Below are positions 26,490 through 40,014 of a DNA stretch of 64,000 nucleotides, one piece after another. The notes beneath the pieces were generated by a model, which was given only the letters and a program-made list of their open reading frames with translations, searched no databases and was not told the DNA's origin. The stretch is taken from positions 62,001-126,000 of the forward strand of contig NSIP01000006.1 in NCBI GenBank assembly GCA_002737725.1, given 5' to 3'. Numbering within the stretch: position 1 is the stretch's first letter; every line of letters begins with the position of its first letter. A program made the position numbers and the translations under genes. This DNA comes from Rhodospirillaceae bacterium (lineage in GTDB: Bacteria > Pseudomonadota > Alphaproteobacteria > Rhodospirillales > Rhodospirillaceae).

Positions 26490-26867
26490 ATGAGTGCAAT
26501 AACGCGCCGCACAACGTTGAGAGTCGCCGCCGTGAGTGCGGCTACGTTTACCACGCGCAAAGCTCGCGCGGCCAGCGAACCTGATGTGATCGTGGTCGGC
26601 GCGGGGCTCGCGGGGCTGTGTGCCGCGACACTACTGGAAGGGCAGGGCCTCAAAGTTTTGGTGCTGGAGGGGCGCGAGCGCGTCGGATGGCGCGTCTATA
26701 CGCTCTACAATTTGCCGAGCCAGCCTAGCCGCATGCCGGGCGAAATCGCCAATCCTTTGGGCCGCATTCATTTCGCCGGTGAGTACACCGCGCTGACCAA
26801 TCGCGGCATGGAAGGCGCCATGGAATCAGGCGAACGCGCGGCCTTGGAAGTGTTGGGGGGGATGTGA
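26490..26867 (+). pseudogene. flavin amine oxidase with central core deleted in frame
   Basis: 125 codons joining both ends of a flavin monoamine oxidase. Residues 1-30 are a Tat-like signal (TRRTTLRVAAVSAATF). Residues 31-76 are the FAD dinucleotide-binding start (DVIVVGAGLAGLCAATLLEG, ERVGWRVYTLYNLP). From about 80 the closing FAD contact region begins (NPLGRIHFAGEYT, RGMEGAMESGERAALEVL). About 300 residues with the substrate domain are missing, yet the frame is open. The RVGGR motif reads RVGWR. Its stop overlaps the start of the next gene by 4 bp. It cannot be an active oxidase; whether the fusion is made is unknown. Confidence 0.8.
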
Positions 26868-27517
26868 TGAAAATAATATGGAGTACTTTGGCCATTGTCT
26901 GCTTGCTGTGGGGGCCAACGGCGTCGGCACAAACGAAAGCCGAGCTAGAAACACAATTGGCTCAGCTGATGAAGATGTTGCCCGGTGACTACGACAACGC
27001 TGCGCAGCTTCAAGGCCAAGGCGCTGACAAGCCGTTCTATCCAGTGCGCACGATTCTCAAGGCTGTGACCATGCCAGAGATCGGCGAACACATTCTCTAT
27101 CTCGAAGAATACCGCGACAACGACCCGGAAAAGTTCACCCGCATTCGCTTGTACAAGTTTACGTTAGATGAGGGCGCTATTCGCCTGCACCTCGTCAATC
27201 CGCTCAAGCCCGAAGCTCTGGTGGGCGCTTATGCAAACCTGGCAAAAATCCAAGCCCTGAGGCTCTCTGACATGCGCAAAGACCGCGATCTTTGCGATGT
27301 GTTCATCCGCAAAGTGGGCGAGGAGTTTCAAGGGGCCATGAAAGAGCGTTCCTGCGACCGCCCTGACAAGGCCTTGGTTGATTACACCCTGATCATTGGG
27401 CCCGGCAAGCATTGGGTGCGTAACCGCGCCCGTTCGCCCGACACCAACCAAGTCGCCTGGGAGTTTGTACCCGGCGCGGGTGAAGGTTTTATCGAGCAGT
27501 TCAAGACGCGCGATTAA
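26864..27517 (+). CDS. CpcT/CpeT-like family protein, secreted
   Basis: 217 residues with a signal peptide (IIWSTLAIVCLLWGPTASA). The mature part follows the CpeT-like (chromophore lyase CpcT/CpeT) pattern: QLMKMLPGDYDNAAQLQ, EIGEHILYLEEYRDND, FTRIRLYKFT, CDVFIRKVGEEFQGAM and KERSCDRP. Cyanobacterial members attach bilins to phycobiliproteins. Non-phototrophic homologues have no known job, and no bilin or phycobiliprotein genes are nearby. Overlaps the core-deleted amine oxidase by 4 bp. A broken paralogue lies downstream. Confidence 0.75.
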   Translation: MMKIIWSTLAIVCLLWGPTASAQTKAELETQLAQLMKMLPGDYDNAAQLQGQGADKPFYPVRTILKAVTMPEIGEHILYLEEYRDNDPEKFTRIRLYKFTLDEGAIRLHLVNPLKPEALVGAYANLAKIQALRLSDMRKDRDLCDVFIRKVGEEFQGAMKERSCDRPDKALVDYTLIIGPGKHWVRNRARSPDTNQVAWEFVPGAGEGFIEQFKTRD

Positions 27518-27827: not shown

Positions 27828-28798
27828 ATGAGGAAATTTCCATTTGCTTTGCTCGGTGTATGCGCGTTAGCAGCGCCAGCCTCTGCTTACACCAAAGCCG
27901 ACCTCAAAGCGCAATTGAAGCTGCTGATGGAGTGGTGGCCAGGCGATTACGACAATAACGAGCAAATCGTACCTCAATCGGGCGGTGGACTCTCGGCACA
28001 AACCGACAAGCCCATCTACCGCCCGCACACCGTGTTCAAACGTCTTAACATGCCCGAGTTGGGCGACAACATGCTATACGTGTAAGAATGGAAGAACGAT
28101 AACCCCACCGACATCGTGCGCATTCGCCTGTATTCGTTGAGCATCGACGAAATAGAAGAAGCCATTTTGGTGAAGTTCATCACGCCGCTCGATCCCAAGC
28201 CGCTTGTCGGCGTTTACAACGACCTGGCCAAAGTCGAGAAACTGAAAAAGAAATATGTGCGCATCTTCAGCGCCCCTGTAGTATTCATCTGCACTGGGAA
28301 GGCGGGCAGTTTCGGTGCGGTATGAAAGAGAAAAGCTGCAGCGTCGCCGAAGACAATGAGTGGTTTCAATACCAAGTGATCGTCGGGCCCAAGCACTATT
28401 GGACGCGCGACCGGCGGTTTTCGTATGCCGACAATAAAGTAACCTGGGAAATGGCGCCTGGTTAAAACTACGCGTGGTTCGAGCAAACTAAAGCGCGCTG
28501 GATGGCGTGCGAGGTGTTAGACAGCCCCGACGGCGACATGACCAAATCCAAGAAGCTGATGGACATTTCGTTGCACGACCAAGGCGGCGAGGCCGACATC
28601 AAATGGCCCGATGGCCGCGATCTCAAGTTCGTCATCCATACCCGCGCTTTTACCTCACCGCCTGATCGCCAGTTTCCGTTGTTCCGAATCCACGACAAAA
28701 AGAACATGGCCATGCCGATTACCTATGCAGTCGACGATGCCGAGCGGTATGGCCTCAATCTTGGCTGGTTTTACATTCGGTGCGCGGTGAAGAAGTAG
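27828..28798 (+). pseudogene. second CpeT-like gene, broken by two stops and a frameshift
   Basis: A tandem paralogue of the gene at 26864, starting at ATG 27828 after GGAGGA with a signal peptide (MRKFPFALLGVCALAAPASA). It continues with LKLLMEWWPGDYDNNEQIV and LGDNMLYV. TAA at 28084-28086 follows (before EWKNDNPTDIVRIRLY). A one-base loss in the C run at 28273-28276 shifts the frame before CSIHLHWEGGQFRCGMKEKS. A second TAA occurs at 28465-28467 (before NYAWFEQTKARW). The frame then stays open to 28798. Both stops are one C-to-T change from CAA. Not expected to yield a full protein. Confidence 0.82.
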
Positions 28799-28936: not shown

Positions 28937-30010
28937 ATGATCGCCCCTTACGTCGCTGTTGCCTGCCAAATGACCATGCGCCCTGTCTACAAGGGCGCCG
29001 ATACCCCATTCCGCCCCGAATGCATCAAAGAGAACCTGGACCGGGTCTGCGCCATGGTGGAACGGGCGGCCAGGGAGCACCAAGCCAAGCTGGCCGTGTT
29101 CCCCGAGTTTTGCGTCCAAGGTTACGCCCTGCAGCGCTCGATTGCCGACTGGGAGCGGGCAGGCGTGTTGCTGCCCGGCCCCGAGACAGCCGCCATGGCT
29201 AAGGTGGCGCGGGCGACCGGCGTGCATATTGCAGGCGCGGTGTACGAGCGCATCCCGGATTTCCCAGGCCGCTACTTCATGAGCGGGTTTGTAATCTCAC
29301 CCGAGGGCGCCACGCCCGAGGCTCAGCTGAGGCTGGTTTACCGCAAAGTCTACGCGCTTACGCACAAGACCCGTCCGGGCGATATCTACGACCAGTACGT
29401 TGCCAAGTTTGGTCGTGCGGCGCTGTTTCCGGTCATCGACACACCCTTGGGCAAAGTCGGCTGTGCGGTGGCTGCTGACATTGCCTGGCCGGAAATCCCC
29501 CGCGCCTTGGCCATGCGCGGCGCAGAGCTGATTTTTAACCCCACGGCTGCCGGACGCATACCGGGTTATGCCTCGGCCAGCGAAGATGCAGATCAGCCCT
29601 TAGCGCCCGCCATGCCCATGGTGCGACGCATGCGCGCTTGGGAGAACGTGATGTATTTGGCTATGGCCAACATCGGGCCCTTTCTTGACGATGATGGCCG
29701 GGTTGGTGCTGAGCGTATCCCGTCAGAAGTGATTGACTACCAAGGCCGCGTCATCGCCCGGGCTGACACCGAAGGCGAGGCGATTGTTCCGGCGCTCATC
29801 GATATTGCAGCCTTACGCGCCTATCGCGCTCAGCCCAAGGCGAACTTCCTCGCCCAACTGCAACCACGGCTGCACGCACAGGATTATGATGCGATGCAGC
29901 TTTGCCCCTTGAACGGTATGGCAACACCTCACGCCGAAGAAAAAGAGGCCGATGATTTCATTGTCGCTACCTGGAAACGCATGGTTGCAACGGGAACGTT
30001 CCATGGATGA
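28937..30010 (+). CDS. nitrilase-superfamily protein lacking the catalytic cysteine
   Basis: 357 residues from ATG 28937 (MIAPYVAVACQMTMRP); a TTG four codons upstream is less likely. Carbon-nitrogen hydrolase fold: Glu is kept in LAVFPEFCVQGYAL (E57) and Lys in RLVYRKVYAL (K137). The nucleophile segment reads GKVGCAVAADIAWPE, where the position normally held by Cys is Ala179. A Cys lies three residues earlier. It may bind but not hydrolyse, or use a shifted residue. It resembles the gene at 38034 (DxYVAxxGRxALxPxxxTPxG shared). The downstream oxidase start overlaps by 8 bp, so these form an operon. Confidence 0.82.
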   Translation: MIAPYVAVACQMTMRPVYKGADTPFRPECIKENLDRVCAMVERAAREHQAKLAVFPEFCVQGYALQRSIADWERAGVLLPGPETAAMAKVARATGVHIAGAVYERIPDFPGRYFMSGFVISPEGATPEAQLRLVYRKVYALTHKTRPGDIYDQYVAKFGRAALFPVIDTPLGKVGCAVAADIAWPEIPRALAMRGAELIFNPTAAGRIPGYASASEDADQPLAPAMPMVRRMRAWENVMYLAMANIGPFLDDDGRVGAERIPSEVIDYQGRVIARADTEGEAIVPALIDIAALRAYRAQPKANFLAQLQPRLHAQDYDAMQLCPLNGMATPHAEEKEADDFIVATWKRMVATGTFHG

Positions 30011-31382
30011 CATTGCTCCTCGGGCCATGAAAATCCTCGCCCAGCTGCGTGCGCTGCTGGGCGATCGGCTGTCCGTGAATGCGGGCGTGCTCGATCAACA
30101 TGGGCGCGGGGAATCGTGGCATCCCACTGCCCCCCCTCATGCTGTCGTGTTTCCAACGACGACGGAAGAGGTGGCGGACGTTGTTAAACTTTGCGCCGCT
30201 CACAAGGTACCTATTGTGCCTTTCGGCGCGGGCACGTCACTCGAAGGCCAAGTGAATGCGATTCATGGCGGGGTCTGTATTGATCTGTCGCGCATGACCC
30301 GCATTGTGGCCGTGAATACTGCCGATATGGATTGCACGATCGAGGCAGGCGTGATGCGTGCCCAACTCAACACTTATCTGCGCGACCAAGGATTATTCTT
30401 CCCCGTCGACCCGGGGGCTGAATGCACCATCGGCGGCATGGTCGCCACGCGCGCCTCGGGCACTAATGCCGTGCGCTACGGCACTATGAAGGAATCTGTT
30501 TTGGCGCTCACGGTTGTGCTGCCCGACGGCGCGATCATCCAAACAGGTGGACGCGCGCGCAAGTCGGCAGCGGGGTATGACTTGACGCGCTTGATGGTGG
30601 GTTCCGAGGGTACCTTGGGCGTGGTCACCGAGGTGACGCTGCGCTTAGCCGCGATCCCTGAGGCAACGGCAGCGGCGACGGTTGGGTTTAACTCTGTCGA
30701 CGACGCCGTGAATACGGTGATCGCTGTTATTCAATCGGCCATCCCAATTGCGCGCATTGAACTGCTCGATGAGCTCAGTGTCGATGCTGTGAACAAATAT
30801 TCGAATCTGTCATTACCCGTCCGCCCGACATTGTTCTTGGAATTTCACGGCAGCCCGACCGCTGTGTCCGAGTGCGCAGGCGCGGTTGGCGAGATTGCGA
30901 CCGAGCATGGGGGCGACGGATTCCAATGGGCCGATCTGGCCGAAGATCGTTCGAAGCTGTGGGAGGCGAGGCATAAAGCATACTATGCGGGCCTTGCTTT
31001 GCGACCGGGCTCTAAAGGCTTGGTGACTGACGTGTGTGTGCCAATTTCACGCTTGGCCGAGTGCATCGCCGATACCAAAGCCGATCTCGCCAAAGCGTCC
31101 ATGCCTGCCCCGCTGTTGGGTCATGTGGGCGATGGCAATTTCCATGTCTGTTTCATCATTGATCCGACCAAGCCCGATGAATTGCACGAGGCCGAGCATT
31201 TGCATGACCGCATGGTCGAGCGGGCCCAAGCCATGGGCGGCACTTGCACGGGCGAGCACGGTATCGGCTTGGGCAAAATCGCGCATTTGAAGCGCGAAGC
31301 TGGTGAGGGGGTCGCGCTGATGCAACGCATTAAACGCGCGATTGATCCGCAAGGCATTATGAACCCAGGCAAGATGTTCTAG
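30003..31382 (+). CDS. FAD-linked oxidase, D-lactate/glycolate dehydrogenase (GlcD) type
   Basis: 459-residue FAD-binding oxidoreductase of the vanillyl-alcohol oxidase fold. ATG 30003 is chosen; an upstream in-frame start is deep inside the preceding gene. FAD domain: VPIVPFGAGTSLEGQ, DPGAECTIGGMVATRASG and VRYGTMKESVLALTVVLPDG. C-terminal marks: LLGHVGDGNFHVCF and GTCTGEHGIGLGK, then a closing NPGKMF. It oxidises a 2-hydroxy acid, perhaps D-lactate or a longer one, passing electrons to the respiratory chain. Operon with the nitrilase-like gene and the PanE-like reductase. Confidence 0.9.
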   Translation: MDDIAPRAMKILAQLRALLGDRLSVNAGVLDQHGRGESWHPTAPPHAVVFPTTTEEVADVVKLCAAHKVPIVPFGAGTSLEGQVNAIHGGVCIDLSRMTRIVAVNTADMDCTIEAGVMRAQLNTYLRDQGLFFPVDPGAECTIGGMVATRASGTNAVRYGTMKESVLALTVVLPDGAIIQTGGRARKSAAGYDLTRLMVGSEGTLGVVTEVTLRLAAIPEATAAATVGFNSVDDAVNTVIAVIQSAIPIARIELLDELSVDAVNKYSNLSLPVRPTLFLEFHGSPTAVSECAGAVGEIATEHGGDGFQWADLAEDRSKLWEARHKAYYAGLALRPGSKGLVTDVCVPISRLAECIADTKADLAKASMPAPLLGHVGDGNFHVCFIIDPTKPDELHEAEHLHDRMVERAQAMGGTCTGEHGIGLGKIAHLKREAGEGVALMQRIKRAIDPQGIMNPGKMF

Positions 31383-31385
31383 AAA

Positions 31386-32378
31386 ATGAGTATGCAAAGA
31401 ATTTGCATCGTCGGGCCCGGCGCTATCGGCGGCATGATGGCCGTTCATATGCAGCGTGCGGGCTACGACGTGAGCGCGCTGGCGCGATCGACCAAGGTTG
31501 CGGAGATCAACCAAAAGGGCATCAAACTCCTCGACGGTGGGCAAACCTACACGGCCAAACCCAAAGCCGCTGTAGATGCGCGCGATTTAGGTCCGCAAGA
31601 TTTGGTGATTGTCACCGTGAAGGCCGCGGGCTTGCCGTGGGTCGCTGAACATCTGCAAACCTTATCGCACCCAGACACAGCTTGGGTCTTTGTGATGAAC
31701 GGTGTGCCGTGGTGGTTCTTCCATGGCTTCGGTGGGGAGCATGCTGGCACGGGCTTGCAGTCCATCGATCCAGGCGGGGTATTGTCGACGGCCTTACCTG
31801 CAGACCGAATCATGTGGGGCGTCATCAACTGCAACGTTGCCATTGAGATAGATGGCACCTTGAACCATGCGCACTCAAACCAGTTACAACTTGGGCGGCC
31901 CAGCGGGTCGCTAAACGGGCTTGATACTGTGGCCAATGTCTTCCGCGCGGCGGGCTACAATACCGATCTGAGCCCCACAATCCGCGACGCGATTTGGGGC
32001 AAGCTGCTGGTCAACATGACCTTCAACCCCTTAAGTGTTCTGACCATGGCGACCACGGATCTGTTGCTGTCTGACCCGCTCGTGCGTGACCTGGCGATCA
32101 AGGCTGTGGATGAAGGCCGCGCTGTGGGGGAGGCGCTGGGAATTGCATCGGGCCCTTCGGGTGCGCAACGCTTCCTCGCGCCCACCAAACCTGCTGTGTC
32201 TGCAAAAACCTCGATGCTGGCCGATTTCGAGCGGGGCAGGGCACTGGAAGTCTCACCACTGATCGGGGCGGTAGTCGAGATCGCAAACCTTGTTGGTGTT
32301 TCCGTTCCCTTTACCAAAGCGCTATATGGGCTGATACGGCTAAGATCGCAGATCAGCGCCCAGACCAATCCAATATGA
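31386..32378 (+). CDS. ketopantoate reductase (PanE/ApbA) family oxidoreductase
   Basis: 330-residue NADP-dependent reductase of the PanE family. The Rossmann loop is GPGAIGG (10-16) in RICIVGPGAIGGMMAVHM. The catalytic-domain region is AIWGKLLVNMTFNPLSVL. It starts 3 bp after the oxidase stop. As it sits with an FAD hydroxy-acid oxidase, it more likely reduces a 2-oxo acid of a catabolic route than makes pantoate; this is inference from position. Confidence 0.82.
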   Translation: MSMQRICIVGPGAIGGMMAVHMQRAGYDVSALARSTKVAEINQKGIKLLDGGQTYTAKPKAAVDARDLGPQDLVIVTVKAAGLPWVAEHLQTLSHPDTAWVFVMNGVPWWFFHGFGGEHAGTGLQSIDPGGVLSTALPADRIMWGVINCNVAIEIDGTLNHAHSNQLQLGRPSGSLNGLDTVANVFRAAGYNTDLSPTIRDAIWGKLLVNMTFNPLSVLTMATTDLLLSDPLVRDLAIKAVDEGRAVGEALGIASGPSGAQRFLAPTKPAVSAKTSMLADFERGRALEVSPLIGAVVEIANLVGVSVPFTKALYGLIRLRSQISAQTNPI

Positions 32379-32444
32379 CCGTGCCGATGTCTCAATCCAT
32401 CACCGATCACCGCCTAATCTTGGGCCTACACCCTTAGTTAAATA

Positions 32445-32924
32445 CTAGCCGATGGAGCACGTGGCTTCGGCGCCGGTCAGTTCATATTTTCCTTCGTCGA
32501 TATTGACGGACTCAATGATGCCGTTGTTCACAATCATCGAGAAACGCTTTCCGCGCGAGCCCAGGCCGAACTTCGAGCCATCCAGTTCCAATCCAAGCGC
32601 CTTGGTATAGTCACCGTTGCCATCGGCCAGCATCTTGATTTTATCGCCGACGCCACGATCCTTGCCCCAGGCATCCATCACGAACACATCGTTCACTGCC
32701 ATGCAGGCAATGGTATCAAAGCCCTTGGCCTTTACTTGGTCGTAATTTTTCAGGTAGCTCGGCAAGTGCTGGTTCGAGCAGGTGGGCGTGAAAGCACCAG
32801 GGACCGAGAACAGCACTACTTTTTTGCCCTTGAACAGTTCGTCCGAGGAAATTTCTGCAGGGCCGCTTGCTGTCATAACGCGGAATTTGCCTTCCGGCAT
32901 TTTGTCGCCAGCTTTGATCGCCAT
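32445..32924 (-). CDS. peroxiredoxin, Prx5/AhpE-type (redoxin)
   Basis: 159 residues from ATG 32924 (MAIKAGDKMPEGKFRVM); the 19-codon upstream extension lacks support. The peroxidatic Cys is C49 in VPGAFTPTCSNQHLPSY. Further marks: FDTIACMAVNDVFVMDAWGK and SRGKRFSMIVNNGIIE. Atypical two-Cys peroxiredoxin that reduces peroxides in the cytosol, perhaps with glutathione (gshA is present in the window). Confidence 0.92.
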   Translation of the reverse strand: MAIKAGDKMPEGKFRVMTASGPAEISSDELFKGKKVVLFSVPGAFTPTCSNQHLPSYLKNYDQVKAKGFDTIACMAVNDVFVMDAWGKDRGVGDKIKMLADGNGDYTKALGLELDGSKFGLGSRGKRFSMIVNNGIIESVNIDEGKYELTGAEATCSIG

Positions 32925-33051
32925 GGTGATGTCCTTGTCTTTTGTTTGAATGAATGATTTCGAACCCGCGCGACTCTGCACGAGATATCCCTAAACTAAG
33001 GAGTTACGATGCAGAATCCAAATGAGATTTATCGGCGCGATCCGCGCAGGA

Positions 33052-33381
33052 TTAGTTCGCGTGGCGGCGATTGAGCTCATAATGGTCGCCCTTAAAGTCG
33101 CCGAAATGGCTGGGCACCTCGGGGTGGCCAATAGGCTCGCCCGAATCATCTACCAGAAGGTTCTGCTGAGAGACATAGGCCACGTAGTGTGTATTCGCGT
33201 TCTCAGCCAACAGGTGATAAAATGGCTGTTCCTTGCGCGGGCGCACATCTTCCTGGATCGACATCCACCAGTCTTCGGTGTTGTTGAACTCTGGGTCCAC
33301 ATCGAAGACCACGCCTCTAAACGGAAACAGGCGGTGTCTGACGACTTGGCCGAGTTTGAATTTGGCTTCGAGCGACTTCAT
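33052..33381 (-). CDS. hspQ: heat-shock protein HspQ
   Basis: 109 residues from ATG 33381 (MKSLEAKFKLGQVVRHRLFP); the longer frame upstream is not needed. FRGVVFDVDPEFNNTEDWW, KEQPFYHLLAEN and YVAYVSQQNLL are the HspQ/hemimethylated DNA-binding-like pattern. HspQ specificity-enhances Lon protease in enterobacteria. Stands alone between a peroxiredoxin and the MFS genes. Confidence 0.9.
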   Translation of the reverse strand: MKSLEAKFKLGQVVRHRLFPFRGVVFDVDPEFNNTEDWWMSIQEDVRPRKEQPFYHLLAENANTHYVAYVSQQNLLVDDSGEPIGHPEVPSHFGDFKGDHYELNRRHAN

Positions 33382-33523
33382 GACCTCATACTCAAATGGC
33401 GGGCTCAGTGTCCACCCAGTTAATAAAGATAGGTGGCCGATTGTGGCCCGTCTAGAGGCTTTAACCCATTGAATTATCATGACTATAAGTCATTTCAACG
33501 GAAAATAGCTCACCCTCGAGCCC

Positions 33524-33838
33524 TTACGAAGCTCTTGTTTGTTGATCGAGAGCCACCATCTCGGTGCGATAGTTCTTTAACCCGCGCATAAGGAGATAGA
33601 ACACTGGCGCGGCCATAATTATGAGCACGGCAGCCAGGCTATATTTCAGCGCCGCTTCATCCCCAAAGACACCGTCTGTGATGAGACCCACGAGCGGCGG
33701 GCCGATCAAAAAGCTCAGAATTTGCCGATCAAGCCACGAGACGATGTAAGACAACAGCAACAGCACCACAACGTACCATGCGTACGTTGGATTCGGATAA
33801 GGAGGCTCTTGTGTGGAGGTCTGCTTAAGAGGGCCCAT
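33524..33838 (-). pseudogene. MFS transporter with central core deleted in frame
   Basis: 104 codons. Residues 1-46 are the start of an MFS protein (EPPYPNPTYAWYVVVLLLL, SWLDRQILSFLIGP), nearly the same as the intact neighbour at 33860. From about 46 it jumps to the last two helices (PPLVGLITDGVFGDEAALKY, then a final helix and KNYRTEMVALDQ). About 350 residues are gone with the frame kept. The joint falls at IGPP, and full-length relatives have a GP both after helix 1 and before helix 11, so a short-repeat deletion is likely. It cannot transport as such. Confidence 0.82.
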
Positions 33839-33859
33839 CGTTGTGCCTTCTGTAGGGTG

Positions 33860-35248
33860 TTATTGAGCTTTTGGATTGCTGCCGCCCAACCACACCTCAG
33901 CCTCGATGACAGCTGAGCGGTAGAGTTTCAGATTGTAGCTAAGGATCGCGATGGCCACCACGCACGCCACACCGCACGTTAGGGCCAACGAGTAACGCAG
34001 CATGGCTTCATCTTTGAATACAAAATCAGTCACGATGGCGACGGCGCTTGGCCCAACTGTCAAACCTAAGAGGCTGATAACGAAATAATACAACGCGGTG
34101 ATTTGACCGCGCATCTGATTGGGGCACACCATCATCAATGACGCAGCGCCCGTCGCCGTCACCCACGCCCCGCCGATGGAGCCGAAGACTAAAACGCCAA
34201 GAGCAATCTCCGGGGTTGGCATTAGGGGCACCAAAACATATGGCCCGGCCATGAAGACGACGACGCCGATCAGGTTCGAGCGCATGTGCCCGTCTTTAAG
34301 GCCATTCTTGTAGAAACGATCCGCAAGCCAGCCACCAAACATCACGCCGATGGGCACCGTGAAAAGCATGATGATACCATAGGCAAAACTAATCTGGCCG
34401 ATACTCCACCCCCATGTGCGAATGAATGTCGTCGGGAGCCATGAAAAATAAGCATAGCCTAAGATAGTGACCACCGACATGCCAATGAAGTGGCTCGCAA
34501 ACATCTTCCAGCGTTGTTTGAGGAATTTGACGACCTCACTGACGGGGATTGCTTCGGTTTGTCCCTGCGCAGTTTGAAGTTGCATTTTTCCACGACGAAG
34601 CGGCTCTTTCACTGTGAGCATTAATAACGCGACGGCGAGGCCCGGCAGGCCAACCACAAAGAATACAGTCTGCCATGCGTAAAGTTGGCCAACGATGGGC
34701 AGCACAACGGGCGGTGCTTGGGACACAAATTGAATCACCTGGCCGCCCAGAATCATCGCAACTGCAGCCCCTAAGCCTACGCCAGCGTTGTAAACACTGA
34801 TCGCTTGTCCGCGCTTGTCTTTGGAGAAGTAGTCGCTGATCAGCGACAGGGCGCTCGGGGCTAGTGTCGCTTCACCAATCCCAACGCCGATCCGCGCCAA
34901 GAACAACGTCCAGTATCCTTGAGAAAGGCCGCACATGGCCGTCATGACGCACCAGATTGCAATCCCCCAGCCAATAATACCGCGGCGGCTGGCACGGTCC
35001 GCTAAACGGCCAATGGGCAGGCCGAGGATGGTATAAAAAATGGCAAAAGCCAGACCGAGCAACAAGCTCATGGCTGTATCTGAAATGACGAGGTCGCGTT
35101 TGATGGGTTGCACCATCAGCGCCATAATTTGTCGATCGAGAAACGATAAAATATAAGCCAGCGTCAGGATGCCAACCACATACCAGGCATAGGCTGGATT
35201 CGGGTACGGGGGCTCAGGCGTTGCCCCATCTGTAGCGTGTGTCGACAT
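33860..35248 (-). CDS. MFS transporter
   Basis: 462-residue, 12-helix major facilitator, closest in pattern to the organic-acid/Spns-like group. Helix 1 region AYAWYVVGILTLAYILSFLD with RQIMALM, the loop-2/3 motif LPIGRLADRASRRGI, GIGEATLAPSALSLISDYF in helix 5, and TVKEPLRRGK in the central loop. It is the intact version of the core-deleted gene 22 bp downstream. The substrate is unknown; nearby hydroxy-acid enzymes suggest carboxylates. Confidence 0.87.
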   Translation of the reverse strand: MSTHATDGATPEPPYPNPAYAWYVVGILTLAYILSFLDRQIMALMVQPIKRDLVISDTAMSLLLGLAFAIFYTILGLPIGRLADRASRRGIIGWGIAIWCVMTAMCGLSQGYWTLFLARIGVGIGEATLAPSALSLISDYFSKDKRGQAISVYNAGVGLGAAVAMILGGQVIQFVSQAPPVVLPIVGQLYAWQTVFFVVGLPGLAVALLMLTVKEPLRRGKMQLQTAQGQTEAIPVSEVVKFLKQRWKMFASHFIGMSVVTILGYAYFSWLPTTFIRTWGWSIGQISFAYGIIMLFTVPIGVMFGGWLADRFYKNGLKDGHMRSNLIGVVVFMAGPYVLVPLMPTPEIALGVLVFGSIGGAWVTATGAASLMMVCPNQMRGQITALYYFVISLLGLTVGPSAVAIVTDFVFKDEAMLRYSLALTCGVACVVAIAILSYNLKLYRSAVIEAEVWLGGSNPKAQ

Positions 35249-35342
35249 GCCTTCAATCCTCCCCCATTGATACCCCCCAATCCCCGGTCGAGGGTATAAG
35301 CTCCGCAGTCACTCTAATCCCTTGCGTCCCAAGATCTGTTAT

Positions 35343-36473
35343 TTATTTGATGGCGCCCGTAAAGAAATACTGGCCGCCGCTGCGCGTTGCATGCGGATCT
35401 GTGCGGTGTTGCTGGAAATGTACACTCGGCGCGTACCCACGAAAGGTCCGTGTGCGCTCAAAGTCGGCCTCAGCGTACATATCTTCCAGGGCCAAGTTAT
35501 AGACTGTCAACATGAACGGCTCGTTGTTGCAGGTTGCATCCCAGTCACGCAACGAGGCCCGGTAGGCATCCATCTCATTAAACTGAGGCGCGTCAGAGTG
35601 CAGCATGACTCCGCCTGTTGAGAGGAGACGTGAACACTCGCGGAATATACGTGGGAGTGCAGCACTTGATGTTTCATGCAAAAGAATGCGCGAGATGACG
35701 AGGTCGAACGACCCGGCCGCAAAAGACATCTGTTCGGCATTCATTTGGTGAAAATGAACGCTCGCGCCTAAAGCATTGGCGCGAGCATGTGCATATCTTA
35801 GGCACGGTGCACTGCAGTCGATGCCATGCACTTCGGCGTCAGGAAATGCATCGGCATAAGGCAATGTATTGTTGCCAATGGTGCAGCCGAGATCGAGAAT
35901 CCGTCGAGGGTTTAATTTGGGAAATCGCCGCTTGATCTCGGCGGCCAGGGATAGGCCTGGGTCATCATTGTTGGGCCCCTGACTGCCCATATTGTGAACC
36001 GTGATTGTCCGGTCGTATTGCGCGCCAGCGGCCACATCATCAGCCATAAACTCTGTGTGGTATCCGCCCGGTTTGCGATGAATATCAAGTTCCGACAAGT
36101 ATCCTGGAACCTTGAGGGCGGGATCGAGACGTAACGAGCCCAACTTGCCAGAGTTGGCCTTCGCTTTAGTTGCAAGTGATTCGATCTGGCCGTCAATCAT
36201 CTCAGCGCTGATCGTGTACATACGATCTTGATTGTCCGTACGCAGCCGGTACCAAAGCCGTGTCCGATCAAATTTTCGCATCGCTTTTGCAATCGTGCGC
36301 GGATTGTGATTCTGCTCACCCAGATCGGGTTTCACATGTTGTTCGTAAAGGCCGCGCAATTGGGGCCGAATCCCAGCCTCAAGTTTGACGGCTAAATTTT
36401 GGCAGAAAATCTCATGCGCCGCTTCATCATGCGTGGGCGTTGGCATTGCAGCGTGGTGTCTTGGTGTCGCCAT
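35343..36473 (-). CDS. class I SAM-dependent methyltransferase
   Basis: 376 residues. An all-helical N-terminal part of about 180 residues (AAHEIFCQNLAVKLEAGIRP) precedes the methyltransferase fold: motif I RILDLGCTIGNNTLPYA near 195-210, an acidic VHGIDCSAPCL, and SFDLVISRILLHETS. The N-terminal domain is unfamiliar. It is a putative small-molecule methylase, divergent from the NCS1 permease operon 154 bp away. Confidence 0.78.
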   Translation of the reverse strand: MATPRHHAAMPTPTHDEAAHEIFCQNLAVKLEAGIRPQLRGLYEQHVKPDLGEQNHNPRTIAKAMRKFDRTRLWYRLRTDNQDRMYTISAEMIDGQIESLATKAKANSGKLGSLRLDPALKVPGYLSELDIHRKPGGYHTEFMADDVAAGAQYDRTITVHNMGSQGPNNDDPGLSLAAEIKRRFPKLNPRRILDLGCTIGNNTLPYADAFPDAEVHGIDCSAPCLRYAHARANALGASVHFHQMNAEQMSFAAGSFDLVISRILLHETSSAALPRIFRECSRLLSTGGVMLHSDAPQFNEMDAYRASLRDWDATCNNEPFMLTVYNLALEDMYAEADFERTRTFRGYAPSVHFQQHRTDPHATRSGGQYFFTGAIK

Positions 36474-36626
36474 TCACCTATTCTGACGTAGGGGCAGGCC
36501 GGATGGCAAAGCTTCATTTACGCGGGCATGCTCATGTCGAACGAACGCCTGAATGCCATTGTGACACAGACCAGGCTGGCTTAACCTATTGCAATGGTTG
36601 TCCGTGTCGCTTCGGGGGAGGCACTC

Positions 36627-38027
36627 ATGTTGCAGAGCATCAAAGTTTTTTTCACAGTGAACGAGGCTGAAGAAGCAGCCTCCGACGACAATCCGCTGGC
36701 GCCAACCCGGCCCGAGCACAAACAACCTGCCGGTCCGATGCTAGCGCTCGCGTTTGGCTGGGGCTTTCTGATCACGGGTCTGCTGACCGGTGGCAGTATG
36801 GCTGCGGGTGTGGCGTTCTGGCCTGACCTGATCGAGGCTGCCTTTTGGGGCAACTTGATCAATTTTGCCGTGGGTGCCGCGGTTGGGTACATGGGTTACA
36901 AAACTGCTTGTAATTCTGGGTTGCTCTATCGGTTTGCTTACGGTCGCATCGGCGTTTATCTGCCCGTCATTTTTCTGGCCATCCTCACAACAGGCTGGCA
37001 AGGAATCGTTGTGGGCGCATTTGGCTTCGCATGGGTTCAGGGAATTGTTGTGGGCATCTTTGGCCAGACTCAGTACGCGGGTGCCGCTGGGTTTAGTAGT
37101 CCATGGTTTTATGTTTTTTCACTGTTTGCTGGGATTTTATACACCGTCACAACTTATAACGGTGTCAAAGGCATTCAAAAGATTAGCATGCCTTCGGTTG
37201 TTATTCTCGTGATTGTTGGCCTCTACGCCGCATACCTTAGCATTGGCCAGGTTGGAGGGTTTGATGCCTTCTTAGCAAAATCTGTCCTTGATTCAGCAAA
37301 AGCTCCGATCTCTATGGGCACGGCGATCAACCTTGTTATCGGATCTTGGATTGTCGGCGCCGTGGTCATGCCAGAGTACACGCGTTTTGCAAAATCGGCT
37401 TGGGTTGCAATTGCTATTCCTTTTGTTGTGTTGATTGTCTCGCAGTTTTTCTTGCAAGTCATCGGGGCGATGGGTGCAACTGCATCTGGCTCTGCTGACT
37501 TCACAGACTATATGAGCATTGCGAAGCAAGGCTTGCTTGTCGGCGGCATCGGCCTGATTGGCATGAGCTTAGCTTTGTGGACGACCGGCGATGCGAATCT
37601 TTATTTGCCAGTTGTCCAGACCGCTTCAACTTTCCACCTTCGCACTAAAGCAATGGTGCTGTTATTTGGTACCCTCGGAACAATTTTTGGTTTGGGCATC
37701 TATCAAAGCTTTTTTGACTGGATCAACATTATCGCTAATATTGTGCCGCCGCTCGTGGGCCCACTGATTGTCGATTACTATCTGGTGCATCGCGGAGATT
37801 ATCGAACCGGTGATCTCAATCGATTGCATGTTTGGAATCCTGCTGCGGTGGTTGCTTACATTCTCGGTGCAGTCAGTACGTTCTATAATCCCGAGTGGAT
37901 TGTGCCCGCATTGTTCGGGCTGATTGTGTCGATGGCAGCTTACGTTGTGGTTTACTGCGCCGCTGCTCTGATGGGCATAAAGTTAGGTTACAGGAAGATC
38001 ATAGAAGCCGAGGGCGACGTTCAGTAG
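36627..38027 (+). CDS. NCS1 family cytosine/purine-type permease
   Basis: 466 residues from ATG 36627, with GGGGGAG upstream. Twelve-helix nucleobase:cation symporter-1: GPMLALAFGWGFLITGLLTG, GNLINFAVGAAVGYMGYKTA, VVGAFGFAWVQG, WIVGAVVMPEYTRFAKSA and FFDWINIIANIVPPLVGPLI. Resembles CodB-like carriers of cytosine, hydantoin or allantoin. Followed 6 bp later by a nitrilase-like gene and then by a hydrolase, pointing to import and use of a nitrogenous cyclic compound (inference). Confidence 0.87.
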   Translation: MLQSIKVFFTVNEAEEAASDDNPLAPTRPEHKQPAGPMLALAFGWGFLITGLLTGGSMAAGVAFWPDLIEAAFWGNLINFAVGAAVGYMGYKTACNSGLLYRFAYGRIGVYLPVIFLAILTTGWQGIVVGAFGFAWVQGIVVGIFGQTQYAGAAGFSSPWFYVFSLFAGILYTVTTYNGVKGIQKISMPSVVILVIVGLYAAYLSIGQVGGFDAFLAKSVLDSAKAPISMGTAINLVIGSWIVGAVVMPEYTRFAKSAWVAIAIPFVVLIVSQFFLQVIGAMGATASGSADFTDYMSIAKQGLLVGGIGLIGMSLALWTTGDANLYLPVVQTASTFHLRTKAMVLLFGTLGTIFGLGIYQSFFDWINIIANIVPPLVGPLIVDYYLVHRGDYRTGDLNRLHVWNPAAVVAYILGAVSTFYNPEWIVPALFGLIVSMAAYVVVYCAAALMGIKLGYRKIIEAEGDVQ

Positions 38028-38033
38028 AGGGAA

Positions 38034-39056
38034 ATGACCAAGATGCAGGCCTCGTTGAGTTCAGAGATTAATCGACGTCGGATGCTGCAGGCGGCAGGCG
38101 GGCTGGCCGCCACTGGAAGTGTGGCCGGATCATCTGCGCATGCAGAGTCATTCCCAAGAGCTGCGAACTCTCAAATGAGAGTCATGGCCTTGGATAAGCC
38201 AAAAGTTTGTGTCGCGGCTATTCAATCGTGCTCTGGAAAGGTTATCAGCGATAACCTCACGGCGATGCTGAGCGCCATTGATCGCATTCAGGCTCAAGAA
38301 GAAAAAAAAGACCTAATCTCGTTCTCAGTTTTGGCGCTTCAGGGTATTCGACCCCGCGGCCTTGATGAGGCGCGGCGAATAGCGGTTAGTCTTGATGGTC
38401 CGGAAGTCTTTGCTCTTTCCGCAAAAGCGAAACAACATCGCGTCTATCTTTCGTTTTCCGCCCTTACAACCGACAGGGCGTGGCCGAATGAAGTCATCAC
38501 GCACAATGTTCTCTTGGGGCCGGACGGCAATATCGTTCTTGCTGCGTGGCAAGCAACGCACGATCCCGCGATGCCGTTTCTCTTAAGCGTTGAGAGAGTC
38601 ATTGATCGTTATGTTGCCCTGTATGGCCGCGAGGCTGTTTTGCCGCTTGTGAATACCCCCATTGGCAATATCGCGTTAGCCTCGGACCAAGCTGCCCCTG
38701 AGATTTATCGCGCACTGGCTCTTCAAGGCGCAGAAGTGATTATTCGCGCCTCTCGCGATGTCCAAGCGCCTTGGGATGTGCAAGCCTGCTCTGCTTATAA
38801 TCAGTGCTATACCGTCGCCATAGCGCCTTCAGGAGCGTTACATGCGGAGAGCGATGAAGACCCTTCGGCGCTTGGTGGCGGAGGTTCACTCATCGTAGGG
38901 CCCCGAGGCGAGACGTTGGCCGAGGCGAGCTCGAAGTGGGAGCAAACCGTTTCAGCTCAGGTGCCGCTTGCTTATTATCGTCAAGCCCGTCGCAAACCAG
39001 ATGTGCATGCCGCATTGGTGTTGCCGGTTTACGCTCAGTATCAGAATTCTGTCTAG
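38034..39056 (+). CDS. Tat-exported nitrilase-fold protein with all three catalytic residues replaced
   Basis: 340 residues with a twin-arginine signal (NRRRMLQAAGGLAATGSVAG). The mature part is a carbon-nitrogen hydrolase fold (PKVCVAAIQSCSGKVISDNL, VLLGPDGNIVLAAW, IGNIALASDQAAPEIYRALA). The catalytic Glu-Lys-Cys positions read Gln103 (LALQG), Gln173 (AAWQATH) and Ala216 (ALASD). It is a paralogue of the gene at 28937. No catalysis of the usual kind can be expected; it may be a binding protein or act by another mechanism. Between a permease and an alpha/beta hydrolase, 4 bp before the next ATG. Confidence 0.82.
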   Translation: MTKMQASLSSEINRRRMLQAAGGLAATGSVAGSSAHAESFPRAANSQMRVMALDKPKVCVAAIQSCSGKVISDNLTAMLSAIDRIQAQEEKKDLISFSVLALQGIRPRGLDEARRIAVSLDGPEVFALSAKAKQHRVYLSFSALTTDRAWPNEVITHNVLLGPDGNIVLAAWQATHDPAMPFLLSVERVIDRYVALYGREAVLPLVNTPIGNIALASDQAAPEIYRALALQGAEVIIRASRDVQAPWDVQACSAYNQCYTVAIAPSGALHAESDEDPSALGGGGSLIVGPRGETLAEASSKWEQTVSAQVPLAYYRQARRKPDVHAALVLPVYAQYQNSV

Positions 39057-39060
39057 ACCA

Positions 39061-40014
39061 ATGAGGCACAATGTGAATCAGTTGACACGTCGCGCGACAA
39101 TTTCTGCCGCTCTCGCAGCCAGCGCATTGGCAACACGCTCTGTCTTTTCTCAGGAAAAGACAGGAAGTGCTTCTCATCCGCCGCCAGCACTCAAGGGCTT
39201 GGTGCGGAAAGGTTACGCTTCAACACCCATTGGTCAGATTCACTATCGGATGGTCACGCCCGCGAAAGATACGGGCAAGCCGCCAATTATATTTTTCCAC
39301 CCCAACCCGTTCTCCAGCTTGTATTTCGTCTACATGCTGGAAGAGATGGGTCAGGACCGCGTCGCGATTGCTTTCGATACACCAGGATATGGTGAATCTG
39401 ACAAGCCCAAAGCGCCGCATTCGATGGAGCAGTTGACCAAAGGCATGGCTGCCGCGCTTGAAAGCCTTGGCTATGGCGAGAAGGGCAAAGGAAAGGTTGA
39501 TGTGTCCGGCTATCACACGGGGGCGTATGTCGCTACCGAGATCACCGCCGCGCGACCCGATCTCGTGCGCCGTGCCGTGCTGGTGGGGGTGCCGTTTTGG
39601 GAAGGCGAAGAGTTAGAGAAACAACGCAAGCGACTTCTTGTTGATAAGCCGCTGACGGAAGAGCCGGAACATGTGCTCAAAGAATGGAAGGCGTGGGTGA
39701 CGGACCGTAACCCGAATATTCCGTTGCAGCGCGCGTATGACGTGTTTGTCGAATCACTGCAGTCTGGTAGTGATATTTGGTGGGCCTATAACGCGGTGCT
39801 GAATTATGACGCACGTCCTCGCTATCAAGTGATTAATCAGCCAGTCTTGCTGCTCAATACAGGGGGTGGTCTTGCTACTTTCACTCGCAACATTCTGCCC
39901 TTGCTCATGAAGGGGAAGTTGATTGAAGTGCCAGAGCTCACCTCGGGTATATGGGATGTGGGCGCTGACGTTCTGGGCCGCCATATGCGCGATTATCTCG
40001 ATAAGCCTGCTTAA
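39061..40014 (+). CDS. Tat-exported alpha/beta-hydrolase fold protein with non-canonical nucleophile elbow
   Basis: 317 residues from ATG 39061 (MRHNVNQLTRRATISAALAA, a twin-arginine signal). The fold shows as PPIIFFHPNPFSSLYFVYML, AIAFDTPGYGESDKP and VDVSGYHTGAYVATEI. The G-x-S-x-G elbow reads G150-Y-H152-T-G154, so His is at the nucleophile position with Thr next. The late catalytic His region reads LTSGIWDVG. It shares this elbow with the gene at 2073. Third gene of the permease operon. The mechanism and substrate are unknown. Confidence 0.82.
   Translation: MRHNVNQLTRRATISAALAASALATRSVFSQEKTGSASHPPPALKGLVRKGYASTPIGQIHYRMVTPAKDTGKPPIIFFHPNPFSSLYFVYMLEEMGQDRVAIAFDTPGYGESDKPKAPHSMEQLTKGMAAALESLGYGEKGKGKVDVSGYHTGAYVATEITAARPDLVRRAVLVGVPFWEGEELEKQRKRLLVDKPLTEEPEHVLKEWKAWVTDRNPNIPLQRAYDVFVESLQSGSDIWWAYNAVLNYDARPRYQVINQPVLLLNTGGGLATFTRNILPLLMKGKLIEVPELTSGIWDVGADVLGRHMRDYLDKPA

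Follow-up and report, generated by a model that had tools for sequence, protein, structure and literature searches.

Nitrilase-fold proteins without the catalytic cysteine in a Rhodospirillaceae genome: a clade with alanine at the nucleophile position

Two genes of the nitrilase fold lack the complete Glu-Lys-Cys triad

The DNA analysed here is a stretch of 64,000 nucleotides from a Rhodospirillaceae bacterium (the window; part of contig C34, genome size 2.92 Mb). It carries two genes, P0001 and P0002, whose products have the nitrilase fold but not its catalytic cysteine. Both open reading frames were found where a preliminary description of this DNA had located them, and all features cited below with two-dot coordinates lie on the + strand. 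P0001 (28937..30010) encodes an Ala-type protein of 357 residues in which no signal peptide was seen. P0002 (38034..39056) encodes a short-elbow protein that has a twin-arginine leader and lacks the Glu, Lys and Cys of the triad. The fold was confirmed for both: they score 122.3 and 79.2 bits, respectively, with PF00795 (CN_hydrolase, cut-off 23.2), and phmmer searches against Protein Data Bank (PDB) chains and comparisons of AlphaFold2 models led to the same assignment. The model of P0001 (predicted local distance difference test, pLDDT, 76) matches formamidase 5g3o (Z 30.6, root-mean-square deviation 2.7, 268 aligned) and the C146A amidase 6ypa (Z 30.5, deviation 2.3, 257 aligned), while the first structure match of the P0002 model (pLDDT 79) is the aliphatic amidase 2uxy (E 1.9e-18). 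The two proteins also have in common the block D-x-YVA-x2-[FY]-GR-x-A ... TP-[LI]-G noticed earlier, which reads DQYVAKFGRAALFPVIDTPLG in P0001 (29390..29452) and DRYVALYGREAVLPLVNTPIG in P0002 (38604..38666); coordinates inside the genes were obtained by arithmetic, counting from 28937 for P0001.

P0001 was described as keeping Glu57 and Lys137 with an alanine in place of the cysteine, and our alignments agree. Glu57 (29105..29107) occupies the general-base position, Lys137 (29345..29347) that of the catalytic lysine, and Ala179 (GCT, 29471..29473, located by arithmetic and alignments) that of the nucleophile. In phmmer alignments Ala179 falls on the catalytic cysteine of mouse Nit2 (2w1v) and of plant NIT4 (6i00), with no gaps nearby, and its codon in orthologues is GCT (G004) or GCC (G002, G036). 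P0002 departs further from the triad. Its lysine position is occupied by Gln173 (38550..38552), as had been proposed, whereas the glutamate position holds Val99 (38328..38330) and not a glutamine. The elbow that should bear the cysteine is two residues shorter (GNIALASDQAAPE, 38664..38702), and the alanine formerly assigned to this position is therefore only an approximate equivalent. The triad is thus reduced to E57, K137 and A179 in P0001, and to V99, Q173 and a short Cys-less elbow in P0002. Both proteins are members of the superfamily by descent and fold, not by the mechanism that defines it.

The Ala-type proteins form one clade and P0002 belongs to another

Phylogenies were based on 134 domains, that is, 205 nitrilase domains minus those at least 80% identical, obtained from searches that started with the proteins of the window and their relatives. 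A quick tree of 99 rows omits 20 tandem N-domains and 15 similar Ser-type rows; a further selection gave a 64-row tree, computed with the three triad columns left out, whose root is unsure because the two canonical outgroup rows are very long-branched and do not lie on one side of a branch. In the 64-row tree the 16 non-redundant Ala-type rows, P0001 included, form one branch (99/95; 98% of 200 bootstrap trees), whose sister is the Glu-Lys-Cys protein L037_1453 (97/92). A clade sharing the Cys-to-Ala change, which the preliminary description had envisaged, does exist, and its members come from Alpha- and Gammaproteobacteria.

P0002 is not part of it. The 15 short-elbow rows to which it belongs form a separate branch (100/100), and the 99-row tree recovered the same two groups with supports of 95 (Ala-type) and 100 (short-elbow). 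Forcing Ala-type and short-elbow rows into a joint clade cost 23.4 log-likelihood units, with p = 0.062 in the approximately unbiased (AU) test. The cysteine was most likely lost twice independently; a single shared loss is disfavoured, though not firmly rejected at this p value. The suggestion that both genes represent one pseudoenzyme branch does not agree with these trees.

Within the Ala-type clade, A179, K137 and R136 were invariant in the 14 aligned rows and E57 was kept in 13 of them. Identity to P0001 drops as low as 35%, yet Ala179 and Lys137 do not vary. No Cys and no Ser was invariant across the 14 rows. T169 was, but equally so across Cys- and Ser-bearing rows.

P0001 is under purifying selection

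Ratios of non-synonymous to synonymous substitution (dN/dS) were estimated by the Nei-Gojobori method; dS was near saturation and the values are rough. P0001 gave 0.029 for the pair G000-G004 and 0.076-0.194 for five other pairs. Its neighbours gave 0.051-0.073 (a FAD oxidase; FAD, flavin adenine dinucleotide), 0.066-0.097 (the first CpeT gene) and 0.016-0.042 (a deoxyhypusine-synthase-family gene). P0001 is under purifying selection, with a constraint like that of an ordinary metabolic gene. Two of three P0002 pairs yielded 0.168 and 0.182, dS being saturated in the third, and the permease gene beside it 0.028 and 0.076. Selection on P0002 is weaker than on P0001, as its faster evolution indicates (dN/dS about 0.17-0.18). 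The earlier view that both genes look selected rather than decayed holds for P0001 (conserved, dN/dS 0.03-0.19) and in a weaker form for P0002.

Gene neighbourhoods of P0001 and P0002

The gene that follows P0001 encodes a GlcD-type FAD oxidase (30003..31382). It adjoins P0001 in G002, G004 and G036 too. In the window the two reading frames overlap by 8 bases, from the likely oxidase ATG (30003) to the end of the P0001 stop codon (30008-30010), and they are probably translationally coupled. Next comes an ApbA/PanE-type reductase gene (31386..32378), again found after the FAD oxidase in G002, G004 and G036. The order P0001, FAD oxidase, ApbA-type reductase is kept in G000, G002, G004 and G036. 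On the 5' side, P0001 and its orthologues are preceded by varying sets of VOC, amine oxidase, CpeT and thiamine-diphosphate (ThDP)-enzyme genes. In the window these comprise a gene for a CpeT/CpcT-family protein with a signal-peptide-like N-terminus (26864..27517), a second CpeT gene broken by in-frame stops and a frameshift (27829..28795), and an internally deleted FAD amine oxidase remnant of 125 residues (26490..26867; 483 residues in G004). A ThDP-enzyme gene lies upstream of the P0001 orthologue in G002 and G004 and is not in that place in the window. The operons had been called intact, which does not apply 5' of P0001. Relatives carry intact counterparts of the amine oxidase and CpeT genes that are decayed between 26490 and 28795.

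P0002 is immediately preceded by a gene for an NCS1-type permease (PF02133; 36594..38027) and followed by one for an alpha/beta hydrolase with a twin-arginine leader (39061..40014), whose ATG comes 4 bases past the P0002 stop. Both neighbours are kept in G004 and G020, so that P0002 has the same flanks in G000, G004 and G020. The Tat signal attributed to P0002 is visible as a twin-arginine leader, but the Pfam TAT_signal profile gave 16.6 bits, below its cut-off of 22.7, and P0002 is putatively exported. The contrast formerly drawn between a cytoplasmic P0001 and an exported P0002 fits their N-termini as read from the sequence; by eye, twin-arginine leaders are present in 9 of the 14 Ala-type rows, P0001 having none. 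A methyltransferase family (F8, window 35343-36473) recurs in 11 of the 101 loci compared, which are partly redundant.

The nucleophile is replaced in most family members of this genome

PF00795 matched 23 stretches in the genome, corresponding to 20 proteins, as three tandem fusions were matched twice. Six of these (L001, L002, L003, L007, L014, L017; L007 and L017 stand outside the trees) read as ordinary superfamily members. The 14 others share a D-x-Y ... FPV-x2-T-x-x-G block and constitute the family. Cys is found at the nucleophile position in four of them (L008 and the C-domains of the three tandem proteins); the ten Cys-less members have Ser (four), Ala (P0001 and L016), a short elbow (P0002, L018, L021) or Glu (L019). 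The curated NCBIfam cut-offs were reached by none of the ten proteins scanned, nine of the 14 family members and one relative.

Among the 134 domains the nucleophile position is occupied by Cys in 43, Ser in 42, Gly in 19, Ala in 17, Val in 7, Glu in 3 and other residues in 3. These counts are not population frequencies; four of the rows with Cys come from canonical proteins encoded in this genome, and the short elbow occurs in the Val rows and in part of the Ser, Ala, Cys and other rows. A Ser-type group (Glu-Arg-Ser, motif ASEEILYPE), with Ser for Cys and Arg for Lys, accounts for 37 of the 134 domains; it occurs in genomes, metagenome-assembled ones included, of Proteobacteria, Bacteroidota, Cyanobacteria and Actinomadura (for example L106, L116, L132, L147, L162), and this genome has four such proteins (L009, L011, L012, L013). 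Fused two-domain nitrilases (L004, L006 and L010 in this genome; tandem loci L117 and L234-L236) combine a Glu-Lys-Cys C-domain with an N-domain in which Gly mostly takes the place of the nucleophile and His often that of Glu (H-K-G). In metagenome-assembled genomes (MAGs) of Binatia/Deltaproteobacteria (L101:3745 and 4950; L102, L105, L109) a Glu-Lys-Cys gene adjoins a paralogue whose nucleophile position is occupied by Glu (VEHD motif).

Matches to P0001 (E <= 1e-20) were found in 13 of 61 genomes of the genus, family and order, own genome included, and in 6 of 47 genera; matches to P0002 (E <= 1e-15) were likewise found in 13 of 61, paralogues being counted in both cases. Orthologues of P0001 are 92% (G004), 78% (G002), 69% (G036) and 62% (G003, cut by a contig end) identical, and G468 falls in the P0001 subclade. 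An Ala-type profile matched 20 of 73 genomes of the bacterial family at E <= 1e-75, a threshold that admits other types too. In 398 genomes of the phylum, with four candidates scored per genome, E <= 1e-60 was reached in the own genome and in G344 and G150, the latter two with Ser-type proteins (L185, L186). Named contigs were scanned with one peptide pattern, and 80 of at least 579 confirmed stretches were kept. Among the matches listed, Ala-type proteins occur in alphaproteobacterial MAGs (such as L084 and L089) and in at least four gammaproteobacterial ones (L092-L095), at least three of which we take, from their bin names, to come from sponges; Ser-type proteins from several phyla are also among them.

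These data may describe a large nitrilase-fold family whose nucleophile was repeatedly replaced, each replacement becoming fixed in its clade, and which would form a natural series leading from amidases to binding proteins or to new chemistry; we judge this proposal about equally apt to prove right or wrong. The series would comprise clades that retain Cys, clades with Ser (and Arg instead of Lys), with Ala, with Glu or with a short elbow, and the fused N-domains with Gly, in which His often replaces Glu.

The family has expanded together with CpeT-like proteins

CpeT/CpcT proteins are known as phycobilin lyases. PF06206, their family, was detected in 18 of the 73 genomes, with eight matches in the own genome and a maximum of 15, and in one of 14 control genomes (Synechococcus). 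Many of these alphaproteobacterial genomes have 6-15 matches. Of the 20 genomes that match the nitrilase profile, 17 also contain PF06206 and three do not, which leaves one of the 18 PF06206 genomes outside this set; the co-occurrence gives a Fisher p of 1e-12, a value inflated by kinship, and amounts to 6/6 versus 1/17 when counted by genus. The family has co-expanded with CpeT-like proteins.

Proximity of the genes was also assessed. In seven genomes, two of which have no such case, 11 of the 65 CpeT matches have a family gene no more than 5 kb away, against an expectation of 2.9. This count used one start coordinate per match, counted two-part matches twice, treated genomes as independent and covered 7 of the 18 CpeT-bearing genomes. 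CpeT is found at most about 4 kb from the P0001 orthologue in G000, G002, G003, G004 and G036, directly adjoins an Ala-type gene in G005 and L092-L095, and is near 10 of 23 Ala-type loci by a tally over flanks of unequal length. A link peculiar to Ala-type genes was considered and rejected: CpeT is also near other types (L112, L177, L227, L234 and, weakly, L128) and near some Cys-type genes, which ties it to the family and not to the alanine change.

Proposed function of P0001 and P0002

From the fold, the loss of the triad, the clades, purifying selection and gene linkage, all of them read from sequence, we infer a loss of hydrolysis, ligand binding, a partnership with neighbouring genes and, for P0002, export. 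P0001 would be a conserved ligand-binding pseudoenzyme of the nitrilase-fold family, coupled to the downstream FAD oxidase, and P0002 a second, more degenerate case; we regard this interpretation as evenly poised. The ancestor of P0001 would have been an amidase-like protein with Glu, Lys and Cys, in which the nucleophile changed once from Cys to Ala and whose descendants retained the Glu, the Lys and the pocket. Having no thiol, P0001 would be unable to form the thioester intermediate and would most likely bind without cutting. A pocket that still binds a ligand would fit the low dN/dS, the conserved Ala and the persistence of Glu and Lys, and by analogy with Cys-to-Ala structures (6ypa, 8hpc, 4izv, judging from their PDB titles) such a pocket can presumably hold a ligand without the cysteine. 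The ligand, held uncut, would most likely be of the amide, carboxylate or carbamoyl type. P0001 could then be a subunit that binds or senses on behalf of its neighbours, the FAD oxidase first, a service suggested by gene order and overlap. P0002, exported, with the fold kept and the triad gone, may form a unit with the NCS1 permease and the exported alpha/beta hydrolase; its likeliest role would be structural or binding, neither of which requires the triad.

Several observations weigh against this interpretation. Ala179 is placed by sequence alignment, and the confidence of the model around it is modest (block means 74 and 62). In the pairs involving G002, dN/dS of P0001 is slightly above that of the FAD oxidase (0.108 versus 0.073, 0.076 versus 0.060), so that the constraint on P0001 is unexceptional. 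The 5' part of its cluster is decaying in this genome, and the module may therefore be losing its role there. Finally, the retained Glu and Lys may mean another kind of catalysis.

This last point leads to the main rival, which we consider possible but doubtful: P0001 would still be an enzyme, with Glu57 and Lys137 as the acid and base of a reaction that proceeds without a covalent thioester (for example hydration, elimination or isomerisation), as a step of the FAD-oxidase pathway. A pure scaffold would need neither residue, yet both are kept; the gene sits within a cluster of metabolic enzymes, and the sister groups with Ser or Glu at the Cys position each show their own conserved motifs, which looks more like a change of chemistry than a loss. 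However, a limited full-text literature search found no precedent for non-thioester chemistry in the nitrilase fold. The Cys-less proteins might instead lack catalysis but form complexes with a paralogue that has the Cys, as the halves of the three tandem proteins of this genome, a Cys-less N-domain and a Glu-Lys-Cys C-domain, appear to do; two family genes are also adjacent in several relatives. We find this unlikely, since none of 19 distinct Ala-type loci has a second family gene adjoining, and P0002, 8 kb from P0001, is itself Cys-less. That both genes are decaying remnants of old amidases seems very improbable. Genes next to P0001 are broken in this genome, and P0002 shares 53-55% identity with the G004 orthologue, compared with 92% for the adjacent permease; but the orthologues found have stop-free frames, Ala179 is invariant across the clade, and the dN/dS values of both genes, which largely refute decay for P0001, speak for selection. 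A misread register, with Cys176, three residues from position 179, as the true nucleophile, is scarcely credible: this cysteine is present in 10 of the 14 Ala-type rows, the remaining four having Ser, Ala or Phe instead, several Cys-bearing relatives (L033_1498, L042_1222, L098, L099_4890, L100) carry both cysteines, each at its own position, and the alignments with 2w1v and 6i00 are gap-free there.

A natural, inherited Cys-less clade makes it possible to test directly what this fold does without covalent catalysis, and the automatic annotation "carbon-nitrogen hydrolase" may mislead on the activity of such genes. In the Ser, Gly and Glu sister groups one can examine if the chemistry disappeared or gave way to another. 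The proposed series, if true, would have grown to 14 genes within a single alphaproteobacterial genome of 2.9 Mb, along with CpeT-like proteins.

Comparison with known nitrilases

Passages in two papers describe the nitrilase superfamily as sharing the triad (PMC1199592; PMC5500890, on the structure of Lnt, as a characteristic feature). Formamidase AmiF and aliphatic amidase have the same fold over nearly the full length, as the matches of P0001 to 5g3o and of P0002 to 2uxy indicate, and their Glu and Lys positions are common to P0001, but the catalytic Cys is absent here. Scores with the corresponding profiles stay far below the cut-offs: 50.0 (P0001) and 39.5 bits (P0002) for formamidase NF009803 (cut-off 406), 41.9 and 27.7 bits for aliphatic amidase NF009802 (cut-off 427). 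The best NCBIfam match of P0001 is N-carbamoylputrescine amidase (TIGR03381, 60.9 bits versus a cut-off of 410.25), an enzyme from which it differs by the missing Cys; P0002 has no match to TIGR03381 at E <= 1e-5. Polyamines are suggested by two genes 3-5 kb 5' of P0001, those for a decarboxylase and for the deoxyhypusine-synthase-family protein. A polyamine pathway for P0001 was dropped, as in G002 these genes are 9-10 kb from the orthologue.

We found no report of a natural Cys-less nitrilase clade in the literature searched, most subscription papers lying outside its coverage. Pseudoenzymes are already known as a kind, and such a clade is a variant rather than a new category. The closest parallels are the laboratory Cys-to-Ala nitrilases (6ypa, 8hpc, 1uf4, 4izv), which have Ala at the nucleophile position as P0001 does. 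The PDB titles of three of them name a bound ligand: glutaramide in 6ypa (C146A), an N-carbamyl amino acid in 8hpc (C171A) and acrylamide in 4izv (E41Q/C145A). Those proteins were made by mutation, whereas in P0001 the change is natural, inherited and conserved.

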